DNA from: Promethearchaeota archaeon
GTDB lineage: Archaea; Asgardarchaeota; Lokiarchaeia; Sigyniarchaeales; SOKP01
DNA: 38,368 nucleotides
Direction of reading: 5' to 3'
Assembly: GCA_004375715.1 (NCBI GenBank)
Contig: SOKP01000022.1
Coordinates: forward strand, 1 to 38,368
Under the pieces are notes generated by a model, which was not told the origin of the DNA, did not search any database, and worked only from the letters and a program-made list of their open reading frames with translations. The first letter of the stretch is position 1. The number at the start of each line of letters is the position of its first letter. Of the stretch, positions 8,706 through 38,368 are shown one piece after another. Both the position numbers and the translations under genes were made by a program.

Positions 8706-8740
8706 ATTCAATCACACTTCTAATTTATATTTTTATTAAT

Positions 8741-8921: not shown

Positions 8922-8933
8922 GCTTATATATAT
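8922..8933 (+). promoter_or_regulatory. TATA box of the RHH regulator gene
   Basis: GCTTATATATAT lies 60-70 nt before the GTG start at 8994. Transcription would begin near 8955-8960, which excludes the earlier TTG at 8949 as the true start. Confidence 0.55.
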
Positions 8934-8993
8934 GGACGTGATATATAATTGTATAGAAAAAACAAGAGTTTTTCTAAATGTTTCAGATATGTG

Positions 8994-9206
8994 GTGATTA
9001 AAATAAAATTAATTTCAGTAAATTTACCAGAATCTTATCTAAAGGTCCTTGAGATCCTTGTTGTAGAGGGCAAATTCCCAAATCGTAGTGAAGCTATTCG
9101 GGTCGGAATTAGGGATTTAATTCGCACAGAATATCTTATAGAAGAATCAGTTAAGCGAAATATGAGTCATAATTTAATTCAACCTGAAATTCAGGAAATT
9201 ATTTAA
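8994..9206 (+). CDS. Ribbon-helix-helix (CopG/NikR-type) transcription regulator
   Basis: A 70-residue DNA-binding protein. It has the RHH order: a beta-strand KLISVNLPE, helix 1 SYLKVLEILVVEGKFPN, and helix 2 RSEAIRVGIRDLIRTEYL with the conserved N/SRSEAIR turn. It would bind DNA as a dimer through the strand. A short polar C-terminal tail follows (EESVKRNMSHN...). The open frame extends back to a TTG at 8949, but the family begins just before the strand and a TATA box at 8922-8933 places the transcript start after 8949; GTG at 8994 (or the adjacent one at 8991) is preferred. It is divergent from the 107-residue gene and convergent with the large repeat protein. Confidence 0.82.
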   Translation: MIKIKLISVNLPESYLKVLEILVVEGKFPNRSEAIRVGIRDLIRTEYLIEESVKRNMSHNLIQPEIQEII

Positions 9207-9217
9207 TCTTCATCTTC

Positions 9218-9231
9218 TTTTTTTTATTTTT
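9218..9231 (+). terminator. Poly-T terminator of the RHH gene
   Basis: T8-A-T5 directly after the TAA at 9204-9206, ending 3 bp before the stop of the convergent repeat-protein gene. Confidence 0.55.
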
Positions 9232-9233
9232 AA

Positions 9234-12200: not shown

Positions 12201-14084
12201 CTTTCTTAGGGCTATTTCGTAATCTCTTGCCATTTTTTCTGCCCTTTCGACAAGTTCAATAAGTTCCAATTGAAATTTCTTATCATCAGTACCCGTTATC
12301 CTTTGTTTTTCTAATTGGGTTAACTTTTCAATGTCAACGCTTTCTTTCTGAACTTTGCGGTATTCTTCAAATGTTTTTTGATCTTGATTTTTCTTAGCTT
12401 CAATTTCTCTTATTTTAGTATCTCTTTCAGCTAATTCAGTGTATTTCCTAATCTGGCTTGAATACATGGCTGCATCCTCGTTCCATCCTTTTTCTAACGC
12501 TTTATCTTTTGCATCAGTATACATTTTTAAGATTTCTGGATATTTTGAAGCGATATTCAAATTACCACTTTTAGCAGCTTTTTTAAATGCTACCTCATAC
12601 TCTCGCGCCATTTTTTCTGCCATTTTTACAGAATCAGTAAGAGTTCCTTTAAGTTTTTCAATTTCAATCTCTTTTCTCTTCTGTTCTTTTAGAGTTTTGA
12701 GTTTTTCGGGATCAATTTCGGCAACCATAGTATCTTTTGTGATTTTTTGGCTTTCATCGAATAATTTTTGTTTTTGAATCTTTTGAGCTTCCATGTGACG
12801 TAATTTTTTATCTTTCTCTAAAAGAATCTGATAGTGTTGTATTTGATCTTCGTATAATTTTACCTGATCTTTCCATCCTTTTTCCTTTGTTTTATCCCTA
12901 ACTTCCTCGTAAATTTTAATTACACTAGGATAAGCACATTCTTTAACTATATTACCTTTATTGATGGCTTTTTTTAAGTCTAGTTCGTATTCTCGCGCTA
13001 ACTTTTCTGCGTAATCTATCATATCGGCAAGATTGTTTTGAAAAATTTCCTCTTCTTGTTTTATCTCAATTTGTTTTCTTATTTTAACTGCTTGAGCTTT
13101 TTGTTTTAAATTTTCTTCGATGGTTGAGCGTTCAATTAATTGAGCTTCTTGCTTTTTTTTTTCTTCAAGTTCTTGTTCTTCCCTTGCTCGGATTTGTTGA
13201 AGTTCTAGTTTATATTTTTCTTTATCTCTTTCTACATGCTCCTTCATATTTTCGATTTTTTTAACTTCATCTAACCAATTTATTTCTTTAAATAACAAAA
13301 TACTTTTTTCAAATAAACCTATTGCTTCATCAAATTGGCGTATCCTTCTCATTTCTGTGGCTTTTCCAATAAGTTCATATGCTTGGTTAGACAATTCATT
13401 TTCCTTCTTTTTCGCATCTTCATATGCTTTTAATTTTTTTGCTTTTAGATCTAATTCAGATGTAAAATTTCCCGAAGCTTCCATGCCTTTATTATCTTCT
13501 TCAATAGGCGAAGATTTTTGTTTTCTTAAGTAATCTGCTTTCCTATTGTAGCAATCTTCAATCAATTCATTTATTTTTTCTATTTCTAACCTTTTATTTA
13601 ATTTTTTAAGTATGCTAATGGCATCGTCATAAGTATCAAGGGCTTGATCAAAGTTTCTGTTGTTAACAAACTCTATTGCTTCAACTATTAGCGAATCTGC
13701 TTGGTTATACAAACTTTGCTCGTCTTGTTCCGATATTTCTTCTCCTTGAATGCTTTCAAATTCGTCTTTAGTCTCTAATTCGCGTTTTTTAAAGCTTTCT
13801 TCTCTCAGTAAGTAAATCTCTGAAATTTTCCCTTTTATTGCCTCGACTTCTGATTCTCTGTTAATTTGGGAATATAACCCAATTGCTTGACGCAAAATTT
13901 CGATACTATCGTCAAAGAATTGTGACTCTACTAACGATAACGCGTGTTTAACTAGTTCAAACGCTTCAGAAGCTATTTCCTTCTCAATATCCCCCATATC
14001 TGAGAAGAATGCTTCTTTTGTTGGATCGGGATCGTTTTCATTAAAATTTGGGTTATCCCCCTTTTCCCCATTACGGTTTACCAT
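9234..14084 (-). CDS. Giant TPR/coiled-coil protein with seven ~125-residue repeats
   Basis: A 1616-residue, highly charged, all-helical cytosolic protein without a signal peptide or membrane segment. Three TPR-like helical hairpins lie near residues 35-90, 120-180 and 230-290 (pattern FDxAIxxYxxAIxxxxxxN). Then come seven repeats that begin at AEKMAR-YE near residues 359, 489, 615, 742, 867, 988 and 1107, each with SP-x(3)-II-x-(I/M)Y, a KGW-x-(D/E)QA turn, Y-x-NQI-x-YQ and a long KLR-x-(L)E-xQK-xKQ-xEF coiled-coil tail. Two or more further TPR-like hairpins (near 1240-1290 and 1370-1420) and a Lys/Glu-rich coiled coil follow, ending in a basic RREERRKR tail. It is probably an extended scaffold. 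The ATG at 14084 has Shine-Dalgarno AAGGATGATG. No enzyme motif was seen. Confidence 0.85.
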   Translation of the reverse strand: MVNRNGEKGDNPNFNENDPDPTKEAFFSDMGDIEKEIASEAFELVKHALSLVESQFFDDSIEILRQAIGLYSQINRESEVEAIKGKISEIYLLREESFKKRELETKDEFESIQGEEISEQDEQSLYNQADSLIVEAIEFVNNRNFDQALDTYDDAISILKKLNKRLEIEKINELIEDCYNRKADYLRKQKSSPIEEDNKGMEASGNFTSELDLKAKKLKAYEDAKKKENELSNQAYELIGKATEMRRIRQFDEAIGLFEKSILLFKEINWLDEVKKIENMKEHVERDKEKYKLELQQIRAREEQELEEKKKQEAQLIERSTIEENLKQKAQAVKIRKQIEIKQEEEIFQNNLADMIDYAEKLAREYELDLKKAINKGNIVKECAYPSVIKIYEEVRDKTKEKGWKDQVKLYEDQIQHYQILLEKDKKLRHMEAQKIQKQKLFDESQKITKDTMVAEIDPEKLKTLKEQKRKEIEIEKLKGTLTDSVKMAEKMAREYEVAFKKAAKSGNLNIASKYPEILKMYTDAKDKALEKGWNEDAAMYSSQIRKYTELAERDTKIREIEAKKNQDQKTFEEYRKVQKESVDIEKLTQLEKQRITGTDDKKFQLELIELVERAEKMARDYEIALRKGLKKGKLIEESPFSKIIGMYNQIRDSVISKGWKDQIAIYTNQVKIYQEKWEKDKKLRELELQKIQKQKEFDDSLKVRTDSAITPQRLKDLEFKRKLESEEQDFQKEITELVEKAEKMARNYEMEMKKALKEGKLLENSPYLEIIEIYTRLRKRILEKGWTDQGLIYTNQIKIYQDKLEKDKKLRKIESEKVKKQQEFIEAQKAPTVYDGKKLRKIEELTKQEQEEEIFEKEIDKIIENAEKEAREYELAIMKGQFDKTCPFLKIAEIYQNLRKKVYARGWKEEAEIYTNQIILYQAKFQKDERLRKLEIQKAKKQQEFEESLKAPTEIKPLRLEELDALNSKNRENDEIMTQALNLIDEAEKAVRNYEVSLKRDILSYESPYEEVINMYATASKMLQKIGWNEEAQKLNNTISFYESKKLKDENLRAFELQKIEKSKIRPVLVAKDDHLIQEMRIDELKKSREAKSKESEEIFNKLSQAEKMAKDYDIKKKEGTSIAISPFKEIIQIYKTAKLDFEKIGWVEQADQLVNSINYYQKKFDEFKRLRALELERVAKQEEETKRFENKVQEAQKAKEELSLLRIKELEEKRKRTVKYESKKERAFNFMDLAKRELKQNNFDKAIKFYKESLQIFDEINWPEGRKMTKESINAIKLKKQRLEREEKLLAQKKREKIRIEAQLEEQITKAKDLHDLQQEQRRRELSAIQEGKEREREISDKAYLLLETGTKLKDDKKFEEAYEKYIMGRDLFKKVGWEHEVSRINNDLMITLKKEMKQTEKLKAYQEKKEEEKEELEELLKEAEEKQKELDQIRKEEKKKQREKLIQKERDKAHEIIKNLKYNEGILALRKVIKKIEHTDQDKMIKEMKKQIEMLENASQVPIITNVELDRDENFAKFRLAYQALDKAQISLSNNLFMKAITELNEAIFNLTETKIGKRFILEIEDKINIYKKELDIKKEPEVKKVSPKLDEEDLRAKIAKRREERRKRIKDL
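10400..13013 (-). repeat. Seven tandem protein-coding repeats, period 119-130 codons
   Basis: The AEK start codons of the seven units lie at 13010, 12620, 12242, 11861, 11486, 11123 and 10766, giving spacings of 390, 378, 381, 375, 363 and 357 bp. Units 3 and 4 are the most alike. The units have diverged at DNA level, so duplication is old. Confidence 0.8.
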
Positions 14085-14759: not shown

Positions 14760-17700
14760 ATGGCAAAAAAATCTTGTGATAAACATAAAAATTTTAACTA
14801 TTATTGTGAAGATTGTCAAAGAATAAATCAATTTACTGAGGAGCGATTCCAATACAGCCGTTTTAAAGGTAAAGTTAGCTACCGTAGATACATTCTTATT
14901 GCAATTGTAGTTGTTGCGATAATTGCTGCGGTAGGAGTGTTCTGGTTGTGGCCTGCATGGTTTGGGGATATGAGTCTTAACGCACAATTGTATAACGATA
15001 AAGCAGGTGGATTAGATTACTTTAAGTTCTTTTTCTTAAACGGTTGGTCTACAAAATTCATATTTAACTGGACTGCCTTAATCGGAGCTATTATAGGAAG
15101 CGTAATAATGAGTATACCTCCCGAGAGAAACTTATTAACTCTAATAGGGACAAAACTACGATTTGGAAAACCAACTAGAGCGAAATCTTTACTATTTTGG
15201 TGGACAATTGGATTTGTAATGTTCTACTTTTTAGGTTTACTCTTAAATGTTAATAACGGTGGTTTTTCTTGGACACTTTATTTAATTGAAAATGGAGAAA
15301 TAGTTTTATCGCCCAATCTAATCCTTGATGCATTCAACGTAATTTTCAACCAAAACAGCGTAGATTTCGTTACTATTTACATCTACTCTAACCTACTTGT
15401 GCCAATAATAAGCTTCATAATGGGAATTATCATATTTCGATTAATTCTTAATGTTGCCAAGTATGTGTATCTACGGAGAAACGATTATTTAGTAATGGGA
15501 AATGTTTTAGTTATTATCGGCCTAGTATGTGGATTAGCGTTCGTATATATACCTACGCTTTCTTTGGACGGTATAAATGTAATTCAAATCCTTTCGCTCA
15601 TTTTCGGATTTTTCTCGATTACGGCTTTAGGTACTATTATTTGTATATTTGGAAAAAGTAAATATAAAAAAGACTCTAGAAACTATATATTTGCGCCATA
15701 CTCCCAAAAAAAACTGATTTTTGTAATAGTAATCATAATCGTCTTTACAATTTCACCATTGATATTCAGTATTGGACCGTTGTTAAACTTAAATAACACG
15801 GCGGTGTGGACAGAACAACAATGGGTAAAAAAATATAAAAGAGAAGTTGAATGGACGAGACTTGCTGCGGGATTAGATATGTTTGAAGAACGACCAATTC
15901 AAAACTTTACAGAGTCATCCACAACTTTAGATGCGGAAATGGTCTCTAAGGTTAGGCAATTCGATCAAAATTTTGCTGTCCAATACCTAGCTGCTTCAAT
16001 AGGTTCCACTTTTGAAGGACTCGCTGATTCTGACATAATCTATATTAATAACAAAGAATACTGGGTTGCACCAAAAACGGTTAGATTTTCTGAAATTACT
16101 GGTGATGCTGTCCAGACTAATACAGAATTGTATGATCATGTGGAAGGATTTCTCGCTATGGATACCTTTACTGGCGATTTAGTGAATGTTACAGAAGCTT
16201 TTAATATCGCCGAGAATTACCCGATATTTTTTGGGGAAAGTGAAAGTCAAAGGTATCTTGAACAGACATTAGGATTCTTCGAAGAAGGATCGCTGGGAGC
16301 ATACGATTCTGACATAATACTTGGTACAGAATGGTCACTTGGTATTCCTAATAACGAATTTCGATATGAAGGAGATCCAGACGGGACCCTAACTGGCCTA
16401 GAGGGCTTTTGGAAAACATTAAATATAGGATTGTTCGCATATGCATTTCAAACTGAACATCAATACTTAATCAATAGAAATGTAAAAAATAGAGTAAGTG
16501 AGATACTTCTTCCTCAATTAAGAATTGATAACGATCCATATTTAGTTTTTAATATGGCTCAAGGCAAAATGTATTACGCTATTTCGATATATACCTACAT
16601 TAATGTTGGCTCCTATGCTCAGTTTCCAATATTAAGGTTCTTAGGTATCAGCTTGGTAGATGTGGTAAGCGGAGAAATGACTTTTTATCAAAATCCAACT
16701 TTAGACACTTCAAACGATCCAACATATCCTCTCTGGAAAATTTATGTAGATCAATATAATTGGCAGGATATTAATTTACCTGCCAACGAATGGCTTAAAG
16801 AACAATTGAGATATCCTGAAGACTTGTTTGAATTACAATTAGAAGCAAATTATATATATCATGTGCAAAATTCAGTATCTTGGAGAAGAGCTGACGATTT
16901 CCACGAAAGACCCGAAGACGGTGATTTATTCTACATAGAGACTGATTTAGGAGATGGAATTGAGTATATTGGTTTAGATTTAGTAGAATACAAAGGTCTA
17001 ACAGCAACCCTTCTCGCAGGAATGTACGTAATAAGACACGGCACTCATTTTGGTGAAGCTATTTTTTACTATACCAGAGACTCAGGGGAAAATCTTATAG
17101 GCCCGAAAACTGCCAGAGAAACATATGGATCAGAAGCAACTCAAGAAATTTCGTTGATTTCAGGAGCTCGTAATGGAAATACATTGCTTTATCCAATTGG
17201 TGGTTCTATCTACTATTATATTCCAACATATAGCACCGCAGGTAGTCTGCAGCAGTTGAAACTCGCTGGATTCGTTGAGGCTTTTAGTCGCGATGTAGGA
17301 TACGGAGATAACGCTCTAGAGGCTTATATTAACTTAAACTTGACAGGAATTGAAGCTCCATCTAATCTATCTTTATCCTATAATTTTGAGATGGAATCCA
17401 CAATGACTTACCCCGAAGATCCAGCTAATTTCGTAATAAATTTACAGAATTTAGATACTAATTTCTCTGCCCCGGGTTTGAACGTAAAAGTAAACCTTTC
17501 TATCTATACTTCTACAGATTTAAACGTCAATTACACTCTAATTTTACCACCATATCTCTATCCAATCCAAAATACAACTTACATAGACGGAGATTATACC
17601 AGAGTTAATTTCACAGTCGTAGACACAACCCTCTATTTTGGAGAGGGATTAGTTCTGAATGGATTTCTGAATACCACAAGAGGAAATGTGATAATTTACT

Positions 17701-17774
17701 ATCAATGGAATCTACTCGTAAACGGTGTAATGATCTACGAATCTTCTGAAAATCTAATAAATGTACGTACATAA
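14760..17774 (+). CDS. UPF0182-family membrane protein with N-terminal B-box-like zinc motif
   Basis: A 1004-residue protein. Residues 6-19 form C-x2-H-x6-C-x2-C (CDKHKNFNYYCEDC), like the first half of a B-box zinc finger. About seven membrane helices follow (near 45-67, 98-115, 145-163, 200-228, 245-262, 275-297 and 318-338), then a large extracytoplasmic region. Family marks of UPF0182 (PF03699, function unknown) are visible there: IDNDPYLVF (about 590-597), the EQLRYPEDLF box (681-690) followed by YHVQNSVSWRRADDF, and the late GARNGNTLLYPIGGSIYYYIPTY region. The last 140 residues are rich in NxT/NxS sequons and look like a beta-sandwich not typical of the family. The ATG at 14760 lacks a strong Shine-Dalgarno. 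The zinc motif would face the cytosol if the usual topology holds. Confidence 0.82.
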   Translation: MAKKSCDKHKNFNYYCEDCQRINQFTEERFQYSRFKGKVSYRRYILIAIVVVAIIAAVGVFWLWPAWFGDMSLNAQLYNDKAGGLDYFKFFFLNGWSTKFIFNWTALIGAIIGSVIMSIPPERNLLTLIGTKLRFGKPTRAKSLLFWWTIGFVMFYFLGLLLNVNNGGFSWTLYLIENGEIVLSPNLILDAFNVIFNQNSVDFVTIYIYSNLLVPIISFIMGIIIFRLILNVAKYVYLRRNDYLVMGNVLVIIGLVCGLAFVYIPTLSLDGINVIQILSLIFGFFSITALGTIICIFGKSKYKKDSRNYIFAPYSQKKLIFVIVIIIVFTISPLIFSIGPLLNLNNTAVWTEQQWVKKYKREVEWTRLAAGLDMFEERPIQNFTESSTTLDAEMVSKVRQFDQNFAVQYLAASIGSTFEGLADSDIIYINNKEYWVAPKTVRFSEITGDAVQTNTELYDHVEGFLAMDTFTGDLVNVTEAFNIAENYPIFFGESESQRYLEQTLGFFEEGSLGAYDSDIILGTEWSLGIPNNEFRYEGDPDGTLTGLEGFWKTLNIGLFAYAFQTEHQYLINRNVKNRVSEILLPQLRIDNDPYLVFNMAQGKMYYAISIYTYINVGSYAQFPILRFLGISLVDVVSGEMTFYQNPTLDTSNDPTYPLWKIYVDQYNWQDINLPANEWLKEQLRYPEDLFELQLEANYIYHVQNSVSWRRADDFHERPEDGDLFYIETDLGDGIEYIGLDLVEYKGLTATLLAGMYVIRHGTHFGEAIFYYTRDSGENLIGPKTARETYGSEATQEISLISGARNGNTLLYPIGGSIYYYIPTYSTAGSLQQLKLAGFVEAFSRDVGYGDNALEAYINLNLTGIEAPSNLSLSYNFEMESTMTYPEDPANFVINLQNLDTNFSAPGLNVKVNLSIYTSTDLNVNYTLILPPYLYPIQNTTYIDGDYTRVNFTVVDTTLYFGEGLVLNGFLNTTRGNVIIYYQWNLLVNGVMIYESSENLINVRT

Positions 17775-22352: not shown

Positions 22353-22373
22353 AAAAAAAAAAATTTTTTTTTT
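22353..22373 (-). terminator. A11T10 palindrome between the two synthetase genes
   Basis: A perfect A/T palindrome ends 2 bp before the stop region of paralogue 2. Read on the minus strand it gives a U11 tract that would terminate paralogue 2 and make paralogue 1 separately transcribed, from a promoter in 22162-22350. Confidence 0.5.
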
Positions 22374-24087
22374 AACTCTTTCTTAAAACTTTCTTATCGA
22401 TCTTTCCTATAACCGTAAGTGGGAGCTCTTCAGCAATTTCAATAATTTTGGGAACTTCATATGGCGCACATTTCTCTTTCGCAAATTTGATGATATCCTC
22501 TTTTAATGCTTCCTCGTTTCCATCGTATTCAAAATCAGGATTTAATTGGATGTGTGCCTTGACAATTTCCGAACCGGGACGATCAGGATTAGGCAATCCA
22601 ATTAAGGCAATCATTCCAATTGCAGGATGCTTGGCTAATACATCTTCTATTTTTGCTGAGAATACTTTAAATCCACCGACAATGATCATATCTTTTGTAC
22701 GATCGACAATTCGAATATATCCATCTTCGTCCATTATTCCTACATCGCCGCTGTGCATATACCCGTCTGAATCTATTGCTTTTTTGGTTTCTTCAGGTTT
22801 ATTGTAATAACCCTGCATGACAAGTGGTCCCTTTACACAGATTTCCCCTGGTTCCCCTAATGGCACTTCTTTACCGGTTTCAGGATCGACTAGCTTTAAT
22901 TCAACATTTAGAAATGGCAATCCTACAGTACCCAATTTTTTAATCCCTAAAGAGGGGTTCATTGATGCTACAGGCGATAACTCCGTCATACCGTAAAGTT
23001 CTAACAATTTCCCTTCACCGACTATGGCTTCCAATGCTTCTTGAGATTCTTTTGGAAATGGGGCTGCTGCTGAAATACAGGATACTATAGCGGAGTGATC
23101 TAATCTTTTAAACTTTTTAAAATTAATCAGAATCTGATATAAACTAGGCACATTAACTAAGCATGTTGGTTTATATTTTTTCATCTCGTTACAAATACCT
23201 AAAGCATCTCTTGGGTTAGCTATAAGTATTTGGCTCCAACCCAAACCGAGCGCGCTTTCACTAACAGTTAAACCGGCTATATGAAACATTGGAAACCCTG
23301 AACATAGCACTCCATCATTTTCTTTCCATTGAAGCCAAGCTTTAACACTTAACATGTTTGAAACACAGTTTCGGTGGCTTAGCATCGCTCCTTTGGGTGG
23401 TCCTGTAGTTCCGCCTGTGTATTGGATCCAACCGATATCATCCGGAGATACATCGACCTTAGGTAGATCAGTAGAATATTTCGCCAAGACATCATCTTGA
23501 AAATGAAGAACGGTTTTTCCTTCCAAAGGCGTAATTTCACCTGAAGGAATCTCTCTAACCGCTTTAATTTTAGCTTGATCTTCCTTAGAGAACGATCCAA
23601 TTACGCTTGTTCCTATAACTAGCTTAAGTTTTGGTAGTTTATCAGCAATTTTAGTCAAACGATGCTCAAAAATCGCATCAAGAGTTACTAACGCAACATT
23701 ATTCCCTCCTTTTCCAAGATCTTCTATTTGATAATGCATTTGGACATCGGACATTAGAGGGCTAACGCCTGAAACTATACACCCCGCTTTAAGCGTACCA
23801 ATAACTGAATATATATATTCCGGAGTATTCGGTAAGTTAATTCCCACTGCGTCCCCTTTCTTAAATCCATTATCAATTAACATGTTAGCAAATTGATTAG
23901 AACGTTGATCTACCTCACGGAAACTAATTTCTAAACCCTGGAACATCAGAGCTGGTTTATCGGAGTATTTTTCGAATATAGGTCTTAACATTTCGGGATA
24001 TGTAGTATCAAACTCTTTCGGGTCAAGATCTGTGAGACCTGGGTCCCAATTCTTTCGCCAAAATCTACTTTCGTACGGACTCGACAT
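22372..24087 (-). CDS. Acyl-CoA synthetase (AMP-forming), paralogue 2
   Basis: A 571-residue adenylate-forming acid:CoA ligase, close paralogue of the downstream gene. TGGTTGPPKG is at 224-233, then ELYGMTELSP, SGDVGIMDEDGYIRIVDRTKD, IVGGFKVFSAKIED and the terminal GKIDKKVLRKS with the catalytic Lys. The frame also opens at a GTG (24099) four codons earlier; alignment with paralogue 1 (MSYKDKIW against MSSPYESRFW) and a GTGA ribosome site in that GTG favour the ATG at 24087. A TATA box lies at 24155-24165. Differences in the acid pocket (for example YLGWSQILIP against GLGWSQILIA) suggest the two may handle different acids, but this is inference. Confidence 0.92.
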   Translation of the reverse strand: MSSPYESRFWRKNWDPGLTDLDPKEFDTTYPEMLRPIFEKYSDKPALMFQGLEISFREVDQRSNQFANMLIDNGFKKGDAVGINLPNTPEYIYSVIGTLKAGCIVSGVSPLMSDVQMHYQIEDLGKGGNNVALVTLDAIFEHRLTKIADKLPKLKLVIGTSVIGSFSKEDQAKIKAVREIPSGEITPLEGKTVLHFQDDVLAKYSTDLPKVDVSPDDIGWIQYTGGTTGPPKGAMLSHRNCVSNMLSVKAWLQWKENDGVLCSGFPMFHIAGLTVSESALGLGWSQILIANPRDALGICNEMKKYKPTCLVNVPSLYQILINFKKFKRLDHSAIVSCISAAAPFPKESQEALEAIVGEGKLLELYGMTELSPVASMNPSLGIKKLGTVGLPFLNVELKLVDPETGKEVPLGEPGEICVKGPLVMQGYYNKPEETKKAIDSDGYMHSGDVGIMDEDGYIRIVDRTKDMIIVGGFKVFSAKIEDVLAKHPAIGMIALIGLPNPDRPGSEIVKAHIQLNPDFEYDGNEEALKEDIIKFAKEKCAPYEVPKIIEIAEELPLTVIGKIDKKVLRKS

Positions 24088-24154
24088 TTTTTTATTCACA
24101 TTTTTTCCGTTTTTGATTAAATAAAATTTGTTAATATTAATTATTGATAGAATT

Positions 24155-28713: not shown

Positions 28714-29259
28714 TTAGATAATAAAAGGAATCATAAAGAAGTCAATAAAGATCGCGACTAAACATAAAAATTCCATTATAACCCATAAATTTCTTTTTAT
28801 GCTCCTTAAACCTTTGAAGGATTTCCCTGAATAACTAATTGTATTATAGATTATAATCAATATCCATGTAACTACCAAGAAGACGCTAGGGACTAATAGA
28901 GCGTATAATACCTGTCCAACAAAATCTAATAAGTACACATATGTTAAAATTGAGAAACCGATTATAACTAAAGTAAAACCCATCCCAAAAGTATATTCTA
29001 CGAAGCTCACGAATCGATTCACTTTTACTTCATCAAAGTCTTCTAATTTTAACTCAAAGGATGCCCTAGAATTTGAAGAAACAGAATTTACAAACAATAT
29101 AAAAGCTAACATTAGCAAAAAAGTAGCTGTAACGATTCCTCTTGTTGGAGGTATCTGCCAAATTAAAGCGAGAATCGTTAAAACTGCTGCAATCATGGTA
29201 GTGCTAAGAATAATCCAATCCCTTACGTTCAAAATTGTGTTTTGGCTATTTTCTTCCAT
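28714..29259 (-). CDS. Small membrane protein, about five helices, unknown function
   Basis: A 181-residue protein I do not recognise. Hydrophobic segments lie near 14-34, 41-58, 88-112, 118-140 and 158-178. A polar, acidic linker (SSNSRASFELKLEDFDEVKVNRF) separates the first pair from the rest. No enzymatic motif was seen. The frame opens at a GTG (29268); GTGAG there is a Shine-Dalgarno 4 nt before the ATG at 29259, which I choose. It is a separate unit between the GyrI-like gene and the tiny paralogue genes. Confidence 0.65.
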   Translation of the reverse strand: MEENSQNTILNVRDWIILSTTMIAAVLTILALIWQIPPTRGIVTATFLLMLAFILFVNSVSSNSRASFELKLEDFDEVKVNRFVSFVEYTFGMGFTLVIIGFSILTYVYLLDFVGQVLYALLVPSVFLVVTWILIIIYNTISYSGKSFKGLRSIKRNLWVIMEFLCLVAIFIDFFMIPFII

Positions 29260-29519
29260 CTTACTCACAATAAATGTTGTTTTTGATTAAATTATTTTTT
29301 GATATAATTATTATAAAATTTCTCTTTTTCATCATAAATTGTTGATAATTGTAGTTTTCTTAACTGTTTTGTAAAATTTAAGAATTCAACATCTTTTTTT
29401 CTCACTATCGTCAAAAGTTAAATTATGATTTCACGCTTTCTACTATCATTTTTAGGATTATCTTTTAGAAAACTAACAGCCCGTATTACTTTATTATTGT
29501 TTCGCGTTAAAATTAAATT
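29260..29519. other. AT-rich gap upstream of the tiny genes
   Basis: No gene is supported. A 36-codon frame starts at 29425 but runs into the first tiny gene and lacks a ribosome site. TTACTTTATTATTG (about 29486-29499) could be a TATA box giving a near-leaderless transcript for the gene at 29520. Confidence 0.35.
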
Positions 29520-30021: not shown

Positions 30022-33000
30022 TTATATAATAATCTCAGTGAAGTATAAAACAACAACTAATAGCACCCAAATAATCGTGAGGGTAATTAACAATATTGTA
30101 GTATAAAACCTCCATTTTATTGAAATCTTCTGTTTCTTTTCAATTCTGTAAATATATACCGCAAGGATTGCTCCTAATATAATTATTGAGGACAATATCA
30201 GAATTATCCCAAAAATAATTGAGGTTAGATACGGTAATAATAAAGCAAATACGAATATAGTAAAACTGATCCAAATCGTTATAAAACGCTGCATTCTTTG
30301 TCTAAACACTTGATCTAAATCATCTGTTTTCTTGGCAGGGAGAAAAGAGATTAAAATTCCTGAAGTCGCGAGACCTGAAAGAGATGCGTGATCCCATCTT
30401 AACAAACCTAAAACAATGTAGGAAAAGAGTACTCCTACTATTACACCTGCAAACAGGCACAAAATAATCCCTATCGCTTTAAAGTGCTTCTTTAAGAAAT
30501 TAAGAGTGGAATAATAGAAACTCAGAAGGTAATTTTTAACCTTAATTAGAGCAAATCGTAAATTATCTATAATATTATCTATGAATCTTTTCAATTCTTC
30601 TAACATAAAAATAAACAAATACAACATTGTCCCTATTAATATCCAGGAGAAACTCCAACTATTTGAAGTTAGATTAAAAGTAATTAAGCTTAATAGCAAG
30701 AACATTATTACGGAATATAAGAAGGAAAGTAATTTGCTGCGTTTAAAGGGTTTGAATAGAACTAAATTTATTATCATAAAAATGAGTAATGATACACACA
30801 GGTTAAAAACTAGATTCGGATTTATAATAAATTCTAAGGTTATAAAAATATCTAACGATAGAAGTGTTTCAATAAAGATAAAACTGGAAATCCGGAGTAA
30901 ATTCCTTGTCTTTTCACTTACCACCTTAATATATTTGTCGACAAAGGTTAAGATTAGTAAGATAATAAACGATATTATCACTAAGTTAAACGAAATATGA
31001 TAATCTAGATTAATATAATATAAAGGCCATGTGATTAAATCGAAGTAAACGATTAGAACTAGACCTTTATATATCCTTGATATGTTGGAACTGATAAAAT
31101 CCCATTCTGATATTAACCGAGATAAATATGCGATTTGTATTATGAAAAGTATTATCGTGATAGGGATAAGGTGTGGGAAAAACAATGAAATCCAATCAAT
31201 GTAGAATAAGATCGAGAAACCTATCATAACGATCCATGAAGTGACGATAAAAAACTTCGAGGTTTTCTTTAAGAACTTTAACAAAAACTTATCTAACAAA
31301 CCAATCAAATGTGTTAGAATACTTAAAATAAAGATAGCTATATGAAATTCTATACCAAATGCAGTCAACACATTATAGATGCTGATTATTAGAAATATGT
31401 ATAAACCTATTCCTAAGAAATTCTGCCTATTAGTTTTCCATTTTTCAAATCTCTCTAGCTTTTCGGAATTAAATTTACTCCTAATATTGAAATACGAGAT
31501 GTTAGTGTAAAATTGCATTGATAAAAATATCAAAAATATATAGAAAAGTGAATCAAAACCATATAAATTGAATAAAATCAGTGAAAGAGCCCATGAGATA
31601 TTTATGAAACTTAAACAGTGGACAATATCCATATACCCTGCTTTTAAACGCTTTATGCCGTAAATTTCTAATATGCTGATTAAGAATAGAATAATCTGAG
31701 AAAATAGCAGACTCTCAAAAAACCCAAAAAATAAGCCAAAGAGTCCGAGAAATACGATTGAAGTCTCTAAGTAAATGGTAAATACTAAACCTGAATAGAT
31801 TTTCTTTGTCTTTATTATCCATTCCTCGCTTTTTATAACACTTTTCGATAAGCGTATTGTGTAAGCGGTTAGTATAGTTTCAGATAATATAACTAAAGTG
31901 ATTCCTAAAAAGTCGAGCATTGCGAATGTGGTAAGAAGAGAGAACCAGAAAATGCCAAAAAAGATTTGGAACGCTATGAAAGTAGAGAAAAGAATAATAT
32001 TCTTATATTTAACCTCGATTGTGCGATTTAAAAATCCATTTAATAGAAACATCAGAAACGAAAAAACAGCAAGATTGAAACTCACTGAAGGAATTCCTAA
32101 TAATAGTGGGTTATAGGCTAAGAGTAAGTCACTCAATAATAGAGAAATGTATATACTGATTACAAGAAAAATACTATTCAATAGAATTGCTTGAGATTGC
32201 TTTCTAATTTCTTTTATTCTACTAGCATCATATTTTGTAATTATTTCGATATAATAAGAGAGGTAATGTAATGTATAGAACTGTAATATCAAAAATATTA
32301 CTAAATTTAAAATGAATAATGTTGGATCAAATCCTGTGACTTTAACAAAGTAAATTGTTCCACCGATCGTAATTATTAGAAATGCTATGATATTTAACAA
32401 ATAGGTGATTTTTTCTATGACTCTCTTTAAAACATGGATATCTAATAGAGTGGAGAGGAAAAATATAAGAACAGATAACAAAATAGCTTCATATAAGCTA
32501 ATAATTATTAACTCCTGAATCAATCCAAAACTCAACAGACCAAGTGCAAAAGGTGATAGTAGTGACAGAATGGAATCAAATTTCGGCATACCATAATCCT
32601 TTTCGGGCATTTGTTCTTCGATTTTCTTCATAAATAAATATCTTGATACCGAAAAATAAGCAGAATAAATCAATAGTGAAAGTAAAACTATATAATAGGG
32701 AGATTGAAATAATGCTATCAATACTATAAATTGTAAAGTTAAGAATGTTAATGCTAAAGGAGAAATATACCATAAAATAAAACGGTATTCATATAATGCT
32801 TTCCCAATAAAAATTAAATTAACAAATATGAATATCGCACACAATAAAAAGATAGATCCTGGATAGATAGATACAGGCAACAAAACATAAACCAAAGATG
32901 ATAATGTAAGCGATGTTCCAATCGATAAAATCAATAGCGGAAATATTTTTTTAATGGGCAAAATCATTCGAAATTTGTTAAATACAAGAAGTGAGCCGCC

Positions 33001-36000
33001 AAAAACAGTAATTGCCATAGATAAAGCGATAATTTCGATATTTGGAATTAATATAAACGTGAAGAAGGTGAAAAAGGAGAAATTCACAACTAAAATTGTC
33101 GAGATTATGTTGTTAAAAAAAGTTCTGTTGAGTTTAAGGAGTCTTGAAGAAAAGAGACTGAAAGCGAGTATTATAAAAGAGAGGTTAATTGATATAAAGA
33201 AATTTAGAATTATTGAATTAATGATCAAGAAAATTGTTAAAAAGATACCTGTCAGAGAAAGAAAATAGGAACTTACAAGTAAAAGATTTTTCAAATTTTT
33301 TAAATTGGGGAAAAATGATAAAATGACGAAAAAGAATCCCAATACAATTAAATTAATTGATAAGTTAATCTCCAAAGGTAACAAAATTACTTGGAATAAT
33401 ATAACGAGGAAGCTTACATTTATAAAAATGTAAAATAACCATAACAGAGTAATGATTTTCCACATTTTCATTCTATAAAACACCGGCATAAGAAGAGATA
33501 CTGCAAAAACAAAAAACACTATATTAGTAATCACTAGATTTTCAGTAAAAACATTTTGACTAAACCAGTATAAGAAGAACAAACTAAAACTCCAAACTAT
33601 TAATAGAATCCTGGAGAAATGTTTTTTTATCCATGAGTACCAAAAGGGTAGAGATAGCAAAACACAAATTGTAAAAGATATTATAAATGAACCACTAATT
33701 TGAATCCCAAAGAACTCTAATGCGTTCGTATAAATATTAATATCGGTAAAACTCTCGTTGATGATATAAAAATTTACAAAGGGAACTATAATCCATAACC
33801 TCCACCCTGTTTTCCATATCACCCAAGAGAATTTCCAGTAGTAAAAGCCTACTGATAAGTAGAAAAGAAGGACGCCAATATTGATGGTTATAATAAACAG
33901 GAAAGGATCCCATATAGGTAAATTAAAAAAGACATTTAAGAAAAAATACATAAAAGTTGGAATAGAAAGAATATAGGATGAAAAAGCAATATAAAAAGAA
34001 AGGCGTCTGAAATTCTCAGGCGCTTTGTTATAAGTCCATACATAACAAATACTGGTAACGCTTAAAGTTAGTGTAAATGTCAGTATTGGATTAAATTCTA
34101 TAAAAAATGGATTATTAAATAGAATATAATAAGACAAGAAACTAATGAGGTTAAATACCATAAGTAAAACACCAGGTCGGATGAACCACTTGTAAATATC
34201 ATTTTTTTGCTTGTAGTAGAAATTACCTGTTAATACCAAAAATAAGAACAGAGAGAAAGTAATAATATATATTAAAGGAATTTTGGTATTGTAGAGTAGT
34301 AAAAGAAAGGTTATAATCGAAATTAAAGTATATAAAGTGAATTTTTCAATTACATTTACATTCCGTATGTTTAACACAATAGAAAAGAATAAGACAATCA
34401 TTAACGAAAAACTGAAATAAAAAAGATAAAAAGTGAAGTCGAGTAGATCGAATGAAGGAATTAACATATAAAAGTTTAGTGTTGTAATCAATTTTACTAA
34501 AATTAACAAGGTAAGTGAGAAGTAGCTAATAGTTCGAAAAACAAAATTGCGATTCCTATTGGAAATAAAGAGATAAATCATAATAATAAAAAATACATAA
34601 GCAAAATATTCGAAAACACTCGGAAATATAGAAAAGAACGTAAATAGCAGTAGTGATGGACCTAGTAATATTCTTATTAGTTTGAATTCAGACACATTCT
34701 CAATTCTATCGTTGTATTTAACCAGATAATAATTAATTAACGAATAAATACCACAGAATAAAATTAAAAGTCGTAATGGTTGATTTGAGCTGTAAAATGG
34801 AAAAATTTGACTGGAATTCCAATATAATTCACTGAATATAATAATTAAAATAAAATAGAACGAATAATAGATGAGTCTTTTGAAAAGTGTTAGGGAATCA
34901 TCAGAAATAAAAAAGTTATTTCTCAGATAATAAATAGTAATAGGACTGAGGAAGACTACAATTAGAAAAGGTAAACCAATCCTTTGTATAAGAGATAATT
35001 GGGCAGGGAATATCAAAATATAGAAACACAATAGAAATTTAATTATTAACCATGCGGATATATCAAAAACCCATCTGAGTCTTGAAAATTCAATTTCGAA
35101 TAAGTTCCGACTGACAGTTGATACTATTAGGTAAGTTAACAGAAAGATTCCAACATATGTAGTTAATGTTAATAGTAAGGACTCTTGAAGCTGAAGAAGT
35201 GAATAAATGCTATTAAATGGAACCAGAAAAATAGTAAGCGAAGCTATCGTAAATTCGATGAAAAAATAAGATATGTTTTTAGTGTATTCGTATATTTTGT
35301 AGATTCTGTAATAATCATATTTACTTAGATCGTTTTCAAATATCCTCTGCTTGAGATTTTCAAGCGGAATTAAGATAACCAGATTCAATACTAGAAATAC
35401 TAATGAAGAACAACTGATATTGAATCCAAAATTAAGAGTGAAAGAGTTTAGAACCGTAAAAATCTTCATGGATATAACACAAGATAAAACAACCCAGGTG
35501 ATAATCTGGCAAGTTTTAATAGAAACGAAATAGGATTCTTTAAGTTTAGATTTATCAAAAAGAAATTCTAGAAAAACTAAAAATCCAAAAAATAAAGCAA
35601 TAACGGAACTATTTATTATATAATAATCTACAGCTATGCCTAACCTAATAAAATCTAATCCTATTAAATAAGGAAGCGAAATAATTAATCCCGATATGAC
35701 TAAACTGTCTATTGTTAACAATTTCTGTACAAAGCTGGTGAAAACATTCTTATTTAAGGAATGAAGCAGAGGTAATAACAGTGTTATACCCAAAATCAGC
35801 AGAGGAATAATATATTTGTAAACCGAAGTAGGTATAAACAAATATAGATAAAAAGAGATGAGGATACTAGTGAAAAACAAAGTTACTATATTAAATCCAT
35901 TCGAAATTTTTTCTGAAAATAGAATTCTCTTTTTGGTAAAAAAATTAATAATTAAGCAAATAAGACCGATGGATATGTATGCTGAAAAAATTAGGTCCAA

Positions 36001-38181
36001 TTGAAGTTGTTGGTTAAAGAATGCGAACATTATGAAGAAGGTTTCTGATATTATTAAATAACTAATATATTTTTGAATTACACTGATTTTTTCATGAGAA
36101 ATTATATTTATCTTATCTCCCAATTTCAAGATGTAGAAACTCGCGATAGATATGTAAAGTATATTAAGCACGATTAACGAATTTAAGATTGTTAAAAATA
36201 AGGCTTCAATTAAATAGAAGTTAAATATGAAGACTGTAAGAGCAATGATGCTGGAGCAAAGGAAATGATAGATTAAAAAGGATTTTAGATTCATAACATT
36301 TTTTTTGTGGAGATAATAAATGGGAATATATGAGAGAACGCTAATTAAAATAAGAGGTATAAAAAATCCGAAGAACGAGCCCCAAGTGTAAAACGCACTA
36401 TAATATCCCGCCATAAATAAACCTAAATATAACGTAAATGAATTTAATATCAAGGTCAGGACCTTAGGAAATAGTTTATTTTCCTTTGAATCCGAATATA
36501 CTATTAAGCTCATTACCGTTACAGATAAAAACAAGGATATTAGTAAGTCTAATTTCAAATAAGTCAGGAAAATCGTAATAAGTACGGCAAAAACTTCGAA
36601 TACAACGGGATAAGATAGGATGTGTAAAAGAGACTTAGATCGTGATTCTTTGAGCATTCTTATTTTCTTCCCATAGAAAATAAGGATTATTAAACAAGTG
36701 GTTATAAACAACAGGTTTAGGATCGTACCAATAATTAGATGTGTGCTAAAGTATATTACAATTATAAAAAAATTCAAAGCAAAAAACAAAAACATGAGCA
36801 ACCATGAGGAACCATAAGTGTAAATTGCGATAAATTTGGGTTTTAATACTTTTTCGCCATACAAATAATAAATTGGAGCAAATATCAAGAAACAAAAAAT
36901 AATCGGTGTAATTAAATAAACAATGAATTCACTTATATTTGCGTTTAAGAAGTAAAATCCAGTGATCACTATACTAATAATCAGGATAAGTAATGTCCAA
37001 GTTATTATTACTTTTCTAGGAATAAATTTTACATTCGGAGGAAAAAGATTAAAAATGATGCCAATAACGCAGCAAGAAAGGAATAAAGCAAGAACTTCGT
37101 CCAAAATAAATACTATTCTGAATACCGCATAAAATAATAAGAATACTTCAATTAAAAGAGCAAAACTATCGACTCTAATTATAAAATTGAAAGTAGAATC
37201 TTTAACTTTTTTTAGATACTGTCCAAATTTAAGGTTTGCTAAACTAAAAATTGACAAATAAGCCAGATCTAAAAGCAGAATCACAAAATTATTCCAAAAA
37301 ATTATGAATACTGTAAAAAAAATCGAGAAAAGTAAAAACCAAAAAGCATAATAGCTATAATTCAAGCTGATTTCTCGAGAGAATATGCGAATACTATAGT
37401 TGAGAAGCACGAATAGTAGGAAAACTATTGGAACTATAATTGCAGATAAAATTAATCCTCCTTGAAATACCTCAAGAATTCCAGATGCTAGATTTTTAAT
37501 GTTAACTAATGCAAACCAAGTTATTTCTAATAGTAAAAAAACGATCACGATACAATAGTTAAAAAACTTCCAAGGTTTTTCGTATAACCGAATCCGAGCA
37601 AACGAAAAATAAAACGACAATAATGTTATTGTTAAAATGATAAAAGTGTGAATTAATATATTGGAGATAAAAAGTACACTTGGATCTATAATGAACTGTA
37701 GATATACGAGTTCGATTACAGGGAAGAAAAGATATAAAATCAATGTAAAACTCGCAACAACAAGCAGATTTTGAATAACTAGTACCGTTTTTTCTTGAAA
37801 ATACTTAAGCTTCTCAAAAACTTGAAATATTATATATGCAGATAGTGAAAGTAAAAGAAATTGAATTAAAAGAAACTGAACGTTAAAAAACTCTATGCTC
37901 GGAAATGGTAAGATCCAAAAGATTACGATTATTGCCATTCCTAGGCTATTAATTAGATATATAAATCTGCCGTAACGAATAGTGATAAAGTTCGATTTTT
38001 CTTCGTAATAGGTAAGAATAGAAATTATAGGTAATACTATAATGCTGATTAAAGAAATATCATTTAGCATTGAAATTGAGAGGAATAGAAGTATTAAACT
38101 GACTGAGACAATAAAATTTAGCTTTACATAAGTTTGAATATCACCAGCATCGACCTCTTCAGCATTGTTAGGGCTTTTCAA
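30022..38181 (-). CDS. Giant polytopic membrane protein, 2719 residues
   Basis: Almost the entire protein consists of hydrophobic helices of 18-25 residues separated by short charged turns; my rough count is about 80 helices. The C-terminal third reads as a loose repeat of about 58 residues with two helices each, with Lys/Arg-rich turns such as DKYIKVVSEKTRN and FKPFKRSK. No enzymatic motif, large soluble domain, signal peptide or cysteine pattern is visible. The longest polar stretch (PAKKTDDLDQVFRQRMQRF) is about 150 residues from the end. The start is TTG at 38181: a perfect AAGGAGGT lies 6 nt upstream. It overlaps the preceding membrane gene by 14 bp. I do not recognise the family. Its length and continuity argue against a chance frame: no in-frame stop in 8 kb of AT-rich DNA. 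Confidence 0.85.
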   Translation of the reverse strand: MKSPNNAEEVDAGDIQTYVKLNFIVSVSLILLFLSISMLNDISLISIIVLPIISILTYYEEKSNFITIRYGRFIYLINSLGMAIIVIFWILPFPSIEFFNVQFLLIQFLLLSLSAYIIFQVFEKLKYFQEKTVLVIQNLLVVASFTLILYLFFPVIELVYLQFIIDPSVLFISNILIHTFIILTITLLSFYFSFARIRLYEKPWKFFNYCIVIVFLLLEITWFALVNIKNLASGILEVFQGGLILSAIIVPIVFLLFVLLNYSIRIFSREISLNYSYYAFWFLLFSIFFTVFIIFWNNFVILLLDLAYLSIFSLANLKFGQYLKKVKDSTFNFIIRVDSFALLIEVFLLFYAVFRIVFILDEVLALFLSCCVIGIIFNLFPPNVKFIPRKVIITWTLLILIISIVITGFYFLNANISEFIVYLITPIIFCFLIFAPIYYLYGEKVLKPKFIAIYTYGSSWLLMFLFFALNFFIIVIYFSTHLIIGTILNLLFITTCLIILIFYGKKIRMLKESRSKSLLHILSYPVVFEVFAVLITIFLTYLKLDLLISLFLSVTVMSLIVYSDSKENKLFPKVLTLILNSFTLYLGLFMAGYYSAFYTWGSFFGFFIPLILISVLSYIPIYYLHKKNVMNLKSFLIYHFLCSSIIALTVFIFNFYLIEALFLTILNSLIVLNILYISIASFYILKLGDKINIISHEKISVIQKYISYLIISETFFIMFAFFNQQLQLDLIFSAYISIGLICLIINFFTKKRILFSEKISNGFNIVTLFFTSILISFYLYLFIPTSVYKYIIPLLILGITLLLPLLHSLNKNVFTSFVQKLLTIDSLVISGLIISLPYLIGLDFIRLGIAVDYYIINSSVIALFFGFLVFLEFLFDKSKLKESYFVSIKTCQIITWVVLSCVISMKIFTVLNSFTLNFGFNISCSSLVFLVLNLVILIPLENLKQRIFENDLSKYDYYRIYKIYEYTKNISYFFIEFTIASLTIFLVPFNSIYSLLQLQESLLLTLTTYVGIFLLTYLIVSTVSRNLFEIEFSRLRWVFDISAWLIIKFLLCFYILIFPAQLSLIQRIGLPFLIVVFLSPITIYYLRNNFFISDDSLTLFKRLIYYSFYFILIIIFSELYWNSSQIFPFYSSNQPLRLLILFCGIYSLINYYLVKYNDRIENVSEFKLIRILLGPSLLLFTFFSIFPSVFEYFAYVFFIIMIYLFISNRNRNFVFRTISYFSLTLLILVKLITTLNFYMLIPSFDLLDFTFYLFYFSFSLMIVLFFSIVLNIRNVNVIEKFTLYTLISIITFLLLLYNTKIPLIYIITFSLFLFLVLTGNFYYKQKNDIYKWFIRPGVLLMVFNLISFLSYYILFNNPFFIEFNPILTFTLTLSVTSICYVWTYNKAPENFRRLSFYIAFSSYILSIPTFMYFFLNVFFNLPIWDPFLFIITINIGVLLFYLSVGFYYWKFSWVIWKTGWRLWIIVPFVNFYIINESFTDINIYTNALEFFGIQISGSFIISFTICVLLSLPFWYSWIKKHFSRILLIVWSFSLFFLYWFSQNVFTENLVITNIVFFVFAVSLLMPVFYRMKMWKIITLLWLFYIFINVSFLVILFQVILLPLEINLSINLIVLGFFFVILSFFPNLKNLKNLLLVSSYFLSLTGIFLTIFLIINSIILNFFISINLSFIILAFSLFSSRLLKLNRTFFNNIISTILVVNFSFFTFFTFILIPNIEIIALSMAITVFGGSLLVFNKFRMILPIKKIFPLLILSIGTSLTLSSLVYVLLPVSIYPGSIFLLCAIFIFVNLIFIGKALYEYRFILWYISPLALTFLTLQFIVLIALFQSPYYIVLLSLLIYSAYFSVSRYLFMKKIEEQMPEKDYGMPKFDSILSLLSPFALGLLSFGLIQELIIISLYEAILLSVLIFFLSTLLDIHVLKRVIEKITYLLNIIAFLIITIGGTIYFVKVTGFDPTLFILNLVIFLILQFYTLHYLSYYIEIITKYDASRIKEIRKQSQAILLNSIFLVISIYISLLLSDLLLAYNPLLLGIPSVSFNLAVFSFLMFLLNGFLNRTIEVKYKNIILFSTFIAFQIFFGIFWFSLLTTFAMLDFLGITLVILSETILTAYTIRLSKSVIKSEEWIIKTKKIYSGLVFTIYLETSIVFLGLFGLFFGFFESLLFSQIILFLISILEIYGIKRLKAGYMDIVHCLSFINISWALSLILFNLYGFDSLFYIFLIFLSMQFYTNISYFNIRSKFNSEKLERFEKWKTNRQNFLGIGLYIFLIISIYNVLTAFGIEFHIAIFILSILTHLIGLLDKFLLKFLKKTSKFFIVTSWIVMIGFSILFYIDWISLFFPHLIPITIILFIIQIAYLSRLISEWDFISSNISRIYKGLVLIVYFDLITWPLYYINLDYHISFNLVIISFIILLILTFVDKYIKVVSEKTRNLLRISSFIFIETLLSLDIFITLEFIINPNLVFNLCVSLLIFMIINLVLFKPFKRSKLLSFLYSVIMFLLLSLITFNLTSNSWSFSWILIGTMLYLFIFMLEELKRFIDNIIDNLRFALIKVKNYLLSFYYSTLNFLKKHFKAIGIILCLFAGVIVGVLFSYIVLGLLRWDHASLSGLATSGILISFLPAKKTDDLDQVFRQRMQRFITIWISFTIFVFALLLPYLTSIIFGIILILSSIIILGAILAVYIYRIEKKQKISIKWRFYTTILLITLTIIWVLLVVVLYFTEIII

Positions 38182-38368
38182 TTTTAAACCTCCTTAGTAA
38201 TTTGCTGTAGAAGGTACTTATGTATAATCTGAATTTAAAGTAAAACGCTAAGAAAATGAAAGATAATACCGTTATTTTTACGATTTCTAAAAAATCGTAA
38301 TTTTGAGGAATGTCAATATAAAAATAAACGATAACTATAACGAAGGGCATTTGAATTAGCAACACGAA
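38168..38368 (-). CDS. Membrane protein, C-terminal end, cut by the window edge
   Basis: The frame is open to the edge of the window (a TTC codon precedes the apparent GTG at 38365), so this is the tail of a longer gene. It encodes two hydrophobic segments (LIQMPFVIVIVYFYI and VKITVLSFIFLAFYF) with a short polar link and a basic end, KLLRRFKIEKP. It stops with TAA at 38168-38170, overlapping the start of the giant membrane gene by 14 bp, which indicates one operon and translational coupling. The family cannot be told from this fragment. Confidence 0.65.
   Translation of the reverse strand, partial: FVLLIQMPFVIVIVYFYIDIPQNYDFLEIVKITVLSFIFLAFYFKFRLYISTFYSKLLRRFKIEKP
38188..38195 (-). promoter_or_regulatory. 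Perfect Shine-Dalgarno of the giant membrane protein
   Basis: AAGGAGGT on the minus strand, 6 nt before the TTG at 38181 and inside the preceding gene. It fixes TTG as the start codon. Confidence 0.8.

Follow-up and report, generated by a model that had tools for sequence, protein, structure and literature searches.

This locus raises the question of what a protein of 2719 residues, made almost entirely of predicted membrane helices, could do in an Asgard archaeon. The window, that is, the whole stretch of 38,368 nucleotides that was analyzed, comes from a Promethearchaeota archaeon (contig SOKP01000022.1 of assembly GCA_004375715.1). The gene of the giant protein is one open frame on the minus strand, read from 38181 to 30022, and the stop codon of the upstream gene is located inside its first 14 nt, giving a 14-nt overlap. 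A search of the same genome found no second copy of the giant gene. The features around its start are as follows:

30022..38181, minus strand: gene of the giant all-transmembrane (TM) protein, 2719 aa, TTG start, 87 predicted TM helices (43 hairpins plus one), N-terminus inside, C-terminus outside
38189..38193, minus strand: Shine-Dalgarno sequence GGAGG, identified from the sequence, with a 7-nt gap to the TTG of the giant gene
38168..38368, minus strand: 3' end of the upstream gene, a detached N-terminal module (about 312 aa); the window ends inside this gene

The overlap with an upstream membrane gene had been pointed out in the original prediction and is real, but the upstream gene is not an independent one: it encodes the giant's own N-terminal module, which is fused to it in many relatives. 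The 5' part of this gene was found on another contig of the genome, C84; the two contigs share exactly 55 nt at the window end, and C84 also carries, before the module gene, a GH4-like gene (labeled by likeness to that of locus L032). The order of GH4-like gene, N-terminal module, and giant is also present in near relatives, e.g., L032. The module comprises about 312 residues with 6-8 predicted helices. A separate gene immediately before the giant gene encodes it in part of genus g1, in g5, and in one of the two g3 genomes, and it is fused to the giant in L037, L042, L045, L047-L050, L053, L054, L126-L129, and others. Both forms, fused and separate, are found in each of g1 and g3, so that the module has probably been split off or joined on more than one occasion. 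An N-terminal cap module, fused or directly upstream, is a property of the family, and the window protein has it.

Membrane topology was predicted with a self-written, simple inside/outside helix HMM with hand-set emission values. In the window protein it found 87 TM helices comprising 66% of the residues, a longest inter-helix loop of 42 residues, and 163 Lys and Arg residues in inside loops versus 9 in outside loops. The check set consisted of 12 other proteins of these loci, labeled by sequence reading for L132 and L049 and from Pfam for the others. The model predicted 8 and 9 helices for LivH-type proteins, 10 for a LivM-like, 2 for a CorA, 11 for an MFS-like, and 7 for an UPF0182 protein, and 0 or 1 for the remaining six (four enzymes, a histidine kinase, and a TPR protein). 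For residues 1290-2400, 35 helices of at least 15 residues were counted manually in an AlphaFold2 model versus 36 given by the HMM. As a prediction, the helix count may err by a few, while fewer than 40 is not credible; the earlier estimate of about 80 hydrophobic helices, far outside the usual range and well clear of a lower limit of about 40, agrees with the 87 predicted here. Pro, Gly, Asn, Gln, and a few acidic residues are conserved within the helices, and 10 of the 87 helices have an acidic residue with a conservation of at least 60% (poorly covered columns were skipped). All 43 complete proteins of the family (three sets of 21, 13, and 9) were predicted to have the N-terminus inside, the C-terminus outside, and an odd number of helices, although they are not independent observations because homologues share one topology by descent. 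Among 40 Loki-type sequences, fragments included, 16 had no predicted loop of at least 45 aa, and the longest predicted loop, 160 aa, was found in a fragment.

The helices form a tandem array in which hairpin starts are spaced by 62 residues on average over the whole protein. A loose two-helix unit of about 58 residues had been noted in the C-terminal third; the unit is real but not confined to this third, and the repeat spans the whole protein with a median of 60 residues. Comparison of the family profile with itself yielded an off-diagonal alignment of 2262 columns with a score of 441.5 (E 9e-45), versus a best score of 60.0 in the reversed-profile control. Because hydrophobic profiles alone reach 60 in this control, self-matches near this score were not used. 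Mean likeness of hairpins was 15.6 at offset 1, 12.1 at offset 2, 13.5 at offset 3, 12.6 at offset 4, and 11.3 for all pairs, that is, the most alike hairpins are direct neighbors. A four-helix super-unit, looked for by the same offset scores, was not found. The array and its duplicated blocks are located as follows:

30040..38121, minus strand: tandem array of TM hairpins, residues 21-2714, median unit 60 aa
36640..37206, minus strand: three-hairpin block copy 1, residues 326-514, 48/189 identical to copy 2
36088..36654, minus strand: three-hairpin block copy 2, residues 510-698
35641..36111, minus strand: three-hairpin block copy 3, residues 691-847, 37/157 identical to copy 2
31867..32544, minus strand: C-terminal duplicated block copy 1, residues 1880-2105
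31120..31749, minus strand: C-terminal duplicated block copy 2, residues 2145-2354

Judged by sequence alignment, a 184-residue block of three hairpins is present in triplicate in the window protein. Residues 326-514 and 510-698 align with an offset of 184 residues at both ends and a score of 201 (control maximum 109), and residues 507-665 align with 691-847 with a score of 148 (control maximum 89). In L034 the first block pair is even better preserved (64/186 identical, score 311 versus 137 in the control). Most of residues 361-550 are missing in L038, L042, L044, L045, and L054 and present in L034 and L037; since five of the seven compared relatives lack much of this stretch and two keep it, blocks are both gained and lost. 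The C-terminal pair, 1880-2105 and 2145-2354, shares 69 of 203 residues with a score of 175 (control maximum 107); the corresponding pair reached 142 versus 100 in L033 and was less clear in L034 (154 versus 149). The negative pair, 1-180 against 900-1100, remained below the control maximum in three of three proteins. Growth by internal duplication, proposed in the original prediction, is borne out by the self-alignment and the block copies: the giant apparently expanded through tandem copying of one to four hairpins at a time. It was extended by whole hairpins with its topology kept, and the copies are still recognizable.

A search with the whole protein gave matches in 35 of 58 genomes, own genome counted. 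The core profile A1 (residues 1300-1850) was built from 19 sequences, the window protein and 18 relatives, which match by construction; with up to six candidates scored per genome, it matched in 59 of 227 genomes of the phylum, own included. All A1 matches fell into four families (f1-f4) of one order, and all 31 named loci are assigned to Lokiarchaeota/Lokiarchaeia, consistent with the predicted Asgard origin. With the same limit of six candidates per genome, A1 found no match in all five genomes of g4 (64%-99% complete), nor in G029 (96% complete), G163 (92%), and G023 (92%). Open frames were at least 2500 aa long in 42 of the 59 matching genomes, so that equally long Asgard homologues do exist, and were shorter in 17, most of the inspected ones running off a contig end. 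The L052 frame contains a single in-frame TGA and is open on both sides of it, and the G154 frame abuts masked sequence. The longest relative, of 4296 aa and 121 predicted helices, is encoded in the one-contig genome G042 of 4,361,485 bases. The homologues are not split into several ordinary genes, apart from the separate N-terminal module in some lineages and the in-frame TGA of L052. One frame, L158:9320-12454 (G153), was rejected as a short relative, being part of a chimeric scaffold with 100 N in the stretch and an end that looks reductase-like by sequence reading. A second, short N-terminal copy was observed in G046 (L155:123-3248, 1041 aa, 28 predicted helices, 43% identical to the L127 giant); with a stop at its end and a predicted inside C-terminus, it is perhaps a truncated paralogue.

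The predicted proteins vary in length by whole hairpins. Complete ones have 79-105 helices in f1 and f4, 95-121 in f2, and 61-75 in f8, a family described below. The f1/f4 profile (17 sequences) is colinear with the f2 profile (5 sequences) over nearly the whole length (score 577, E 3e-62; 31.6 when reversed), and relatives diverge to about 20% identity. Conserved caps and core contrast with a variable middle; the C-terminal cap is located as follows:

30025..30324, minus strand: C-terminal cap, residues 2620-2719, ending ...ISIKWRFYTT..., conserved columns 2637-2691

The dN/dS ratio was 0.24-0.27 among the window protein, L032, and L033, and two further pairs, from another group, gave 0.31-0.32. 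Between the window protein and L032, it ranged from 0.11 (residues 1401-1600) to 0.33 in 14 windows of 200 residues, indicating purifying selection along the whole length of the giant. The claim that this is a real gene is upheld by the core matches in 59 of 227 genomes, the 42 of 59 frames of at least 2500 aa, and dN/dS values of 0.24-0.32 in five pairs. The chance that the frame is an artefact of fused contigs, a wrong strand, or chance is practically negligible: the source genome is a fragmented draft of 320 contigs and the frame of one relative (G153) is a chimeric scaffold, but frames of at least 2500 aa are present in 41 other genomes, including the single-contig genome with 4296 aa, and the 55-nt contig overlap backs the upstream join.

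A second clade was reached through the N-terminal module. Its profile, A5, matched in 59 of 227 genomes at E<=0.001, including weak matches (E 2e-4 to 7e-4) in three genomes of f8, an Asgard family of another class, where they are located at the N-terminus of all-TM open frames of 2033, 2295, and 2118 aa. A profile of these three proteins found 15 f8 genomes and one weak f1 match (G007, E 5.7e-5), which was taken as chance. For comparison with the f8 profile, the Loki profile was cut into 47 segments of 75 columns. The first segment matched f8 residues 1-58 with a score of 45.3 (next best 27.5, median 16.7), and two of the last segments had weak matches (24.7 and 21.1) close to the C-terminus of f8; as one query, the last 130 Loki columns scored 25.4 at another place and 25.2 near the C-terminus. 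Whole profiles gave an off-diagonal best of 55 for Loki versus f8 (30 reversed) and 37.6 for f2 versus f8 (29.6 reversed). By these profile comparisons the two bodies are not clearly alignable, and only the N-terminal cap is clearly shared. The combined N-cap profile had E values below 1e-9 only in the order and f8, the next matches being at 5e-4 or worse. Common descent of the Loki-type and f8 giants, with a replaced or rebuilt body, is therefore probable.

Conservation is concentrated in a module in the middle of the chain:

33262..33864, minus strand: most conserved module, residues 1440-1640; Trp/Pro-rich helix, short helix, and beta-hairpin predicted outside

Of the 20 invariant columns of A1, 15 fall within this module, and invariant residues include W1456, W1463, P1467, N1470, G1497, P1512, W1530, W1539, P1566, W1574, and W1581. 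Conservation per 50 residues of the whole protein peaks at 1451-1550. The conserved Trp/Pro core, a further property of the family, is present in the window protein, which matches by construction, being one of the sequences in the profile. An AlphaFold2 model of residues 1325-1740 based on 30 sequences (pLDDT 81, pTM 0.67) consists of ordinary hairpins except for a helix (1453-1469), a short helix (1471-1479), and a beta-hairpin (1487-1496). The helix HMM places the beta-hairpin outside, and the confidence of the structural model falls to 58-73 there. The longer model, of residues 1290-2400, has a pLDDT of 71 and a pTM of 0.50. In Foldseek searches of PDB and of viral models, the 1325-1740 model had 84 and 51 matches at E<=10, respectively, and none at E<=0.001. 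Nothing significant was found in PDB for the 1290-2400 model either (best E 0.0066, TM-score about 0.1), and its top non-significant neighbors are mostly soluble helical-repeat proteins.

Sequence searches gave the same result. The window protein had no match in Pfam and NCBIfam (both at E<=1), PHROGs, PADLOC, or PDB sequences (E<=10), the core profile had none among PDB sequences, and three relatives matched no Pfam family at E<=1. With 30 core members, Pfam at E<=1 returned Syndecan (two members, best E 0.042), DUF2976 (one, E 0.11), and DUF7470 (one, E 0.83), all taken as chance. These searches bear out the statement of the original prediction that there is no recognizable catalytic domain, no transporter family repeated along the chain was matched, and the suggested structure prediction, performed for 1290-2400 and 1325-1740, revealed no significant fold. 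In these searches the giant hairpin-array family matched no known family model, solved relative, or significant fold neighbor, and since the protein is missed by Pfam, NCBIfam, PHROGs, and PADLOC, annotation by these libraries would pass it over. No description of such a giant protein was found in the literature, bioRxiv preprints and many subscription papers lying outside the search, and the accessible part of a paper on proteins of at least 5000 aa (PMC11573180) contains nothing on this family.

The known proteins closest in appearance differ in important respects. Bacterial multi-TM proteins such as DUF2339/DUF2157 have many hydrophobic hairpins with short turns and far fewer helices than the giant, and no Pfam match to them was obtained for the window protein at E<=1. 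Rotor c/K subunits of ATP synthase carry an ion-binding carboxylate in their hairpins, while a conserved acid is present in 10 of 87 helices of the giant, and neither the window protein nor the three relatives matched a c-subunit family in Pfam. An archaeal protein of fused tandem TM hairpins, with 26 TM segments in 13 hairpins and 1021 aa, is the largest archaeal hairpin fusion among the publications consulted (PMC2359735). According to the same source, each of its 13 hairpins keeps a full set of Na+-binding residues, in contrast to the scattered conserved acids of the giant. Secondary transporters matched neither by family, nor by PDB sequence, nor by fold (Foldseek, 0 at E<=0.001). Soluble solenoids such as Ctr9 and Ski complex subunits, which are among the top non-significant Foldseek neighbors of the 1290-2400 model, also consist of helical hairpins stacked in a row, but they are soluble, with TM-scores about 0.1 and no sequence relation found. 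Piezo1/2 resemble the giant as very long single chains of repeated TM units. Piezo is a homotrimer with a stretch-gated current and a central pore located at the C-terminal end of the chain, and the protein has a four-helix repeat and beam, cap, and pore domains, whereas the repeat of the giant is two helices, with no four-helix period in the offset scores, and no Pfam, NCBIfam, or PDB sequence was matched. The giant is not assigned to the Piezo family here. Piezo1 is given as 2547 aa with 38 TM helices (PMC5880808), and Piezo is said to have the most TM passes among membrane proteins found so far, 38 per chain and 114 per trimer (PMC9256749), compared with 87 predicted for the giant and 121 for its longest relative.

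Gene neighborhoods were compared by clustering in 46 Loki-type loci of twelve genera, clusters being named via Pfam-tested members. An aminotransferase-type gene has 24 members, all upstream on the same strand, and a GH4-type glycosidase gene has 24 members, 21 upstream on the same strand and 3 downstream, each in five genera; the GH4 gene of the window genome on C84 is outside this count. No neighbor common to all lineages was found among the 46 loci, and no cluster occurred in more than 5 of 12 genera. The GH4/aminotransferase neighborhood thus belongs to some genera, not to the whole family. By sequence reading, some loci have an MFS-like gene beyond these genes, and next come ABC transport genes of the branched-chain type in g8 loci, e.g., L132 (with Pfam for the L133 copies). 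In genus g15 of f2, the giant is immediately preceded on its own strand by a flotillin/SPFH gene (L127:17266-18489, by Pfam; L128:12961-14202, by sequence). A gene for a small membrane-type protein lies before the flotillin/SPFH gene. In the window, the gene at 28714-29268 (minus strand) encodes 184 aa of membrane type by reading, without a Pfam match; it recurs in g1 and g5 (14 members), downstream of the giant and in the same orientation, and in the window it is followed by a GyrI-like gene. Elsewhere in the window, the following genes were recorded:

14760-17774, plus strand: 1004 aa, UPF0182 match (E 1.8e-12), 7 predicted helices
20455-22161 and 22372-24099, minus strand: two neighboring genes of AMP-binding enzymes
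9234-14084, minus strand: 1616 aa, weak tetratricopeptide-repeat matches

A CxxC...CxxC (zinc-ribbon) protein adjoins the giant in 9 of 9 f8 loci, 3 of 3 g6 loci, and in L053 and L054 of g12. The f8 proteins are 164-177 aa long, and their genes are oriented divergently to that of the giant (L152:5160-5693, L180:12406-12906, L181:1864-2364, and six more loci); two of them matched (double) zinc-ribbon models of Pfam, one only weakly. In g3, a zinc-ribbon gene is located 393 bp (L050) or 1452 bp (L051) upstream of the giant, and L049 holds one in its own N-terminal region. The zinc-ribbon-like motif of L049, CSKCGELIKGDHYFCPNC, lies in the giant frame 5648-13675 at residues 169-186, in a predicted inside loop of the N-module. 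In L064 (g12), the largest frame encodes such a CxxC...CxxC protein and is probably the neighbor, not the giant itself. The motif occurred in 16 of 96 near ORFs (<600 bp) versus 37 of 372 far ORFs, counts in which lineages are not independent; a zinc-ribbon protein as a partner of the giant is a lead only, without statistical weight.

The array, its orientation, its duplications, its conservation, and the selection acting on it are supported by computation. An oriented, nearly all-membrane array of variable length, with no repeated catalytic or ion-binding residue and with fixed ends and module, is most economically read as a structural array with one working site. The most likely role, which we propose tentatively, is that of an in-membrane scaffold of side-by-side hairpins with caps and one conserved Trp/Pro-rich working module. 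The chain is a predicted linear array of about 43 TM hairpins (about 60 in the longest relative), all inserted in the same orientation and arranged as an N-terminal cap module, a strongly conserved central module, and a C-terminal cap. The hairpins would lie next to one another as a rigid slab or solenoid embedded in the cell membrane, which they would organize or bend; the central module would bind a partner, lipid, or substrate, and the length of the array would set the size of the membrane patch. This role is favored by the hairpin periodicity of the whole protein, the same orientation and odd helix number in 43 of 43 proteins, the little protein outside the membrane, and the absence of a catalytic or ion-binding residue in each hairpin. 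Conserved caps and core around a variable middle, purifying selection throughout, and the lack of an enzyme or transporter family match point the same way, as do the mostly soluble helical repeats among the non-significant Foldseek neighbors of the 1290-2400 model. Since this model is only moderate (pLDDT 71, pTM 0.50), the slab or solenoid shape is not established. A purely passive scaffold would hardly be expected to have so strongly conserved a core, and the absence of a neighbor found in all lineages and of A1 matches (among up to six candidates per genome) in g4 and some near-complete relatives also argues against this role.

The conserved polar residues within helices (Pro, Gly, Asn, Gln, and a few acids) would suit a very large transporter, or a lipid conduit or scramblase, in which polar grooves between hairpins pass solutes or lipids and the Trp-rich core binds them. 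The GH4-type (21 members) and aminotransferase (24) genes upstream on the same strand in the 46 loci, together with the MFS-like and branched-chain-type ABC genes of some loci, fit this reading, but no such neighbors were recognized in f2, f3, or f8 loci and no transporter family or solved transporter was matched, making it rather unlikely. An analogy with Piezo, where the hairpin array would be a tension-sensing blade and the central module a gate or pore, draws on the same size class, the all-helical repeated array, and a localized, highly conserved module with a helix end, a short helix, and an outside beta-hairpin, at which dN/dS is 0.11. It is improbable: the repeat unit is one hairpin and not four helices (15.6 at offset 1, 12.1 at offset 2), there is no Pfam match, and the core is mid-chain versus the C-terminal Piezo pore. 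Wide variation of helix number among relatives (79-105 in complete f1 proteins) and divergence to about 20% identity could also be expected of a slowly decaying or neutrally expanding membrane anchor in which the additional hairpins serve no function themselves. Such expansion is very improbable in view of dN/dS of 0.11-0.33 in 14 of 14 windows against L032, the strict topology with a Lys/Arg ratio of 163:9, and frames of at least 2500 aa kept open in 42 of 59 genomes.

The giant might represent a new architectural class, a membrane hairpin solenoid acting as an intramembrane skeleton or ruler that sculpts Asgard membranes, older than the split of two Asgard classes and exceeding, in its longest members, even the Piezo trimer in membrane passes; this is possible, although doubtful. 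The predicted passes are more than twice the 38 of a Piezo chain, reaching 121 in the relative from the single-contig genome. Piezo blades illustrate that TM units in an array can adopt a highly curved arrangement (PMC9256749), and one Asgard cell makes blebs and long branching protrusions (PMC7015854). If it is a structural membrane protein, the giant would be a candidate for how Asgard cells shape their membranes.
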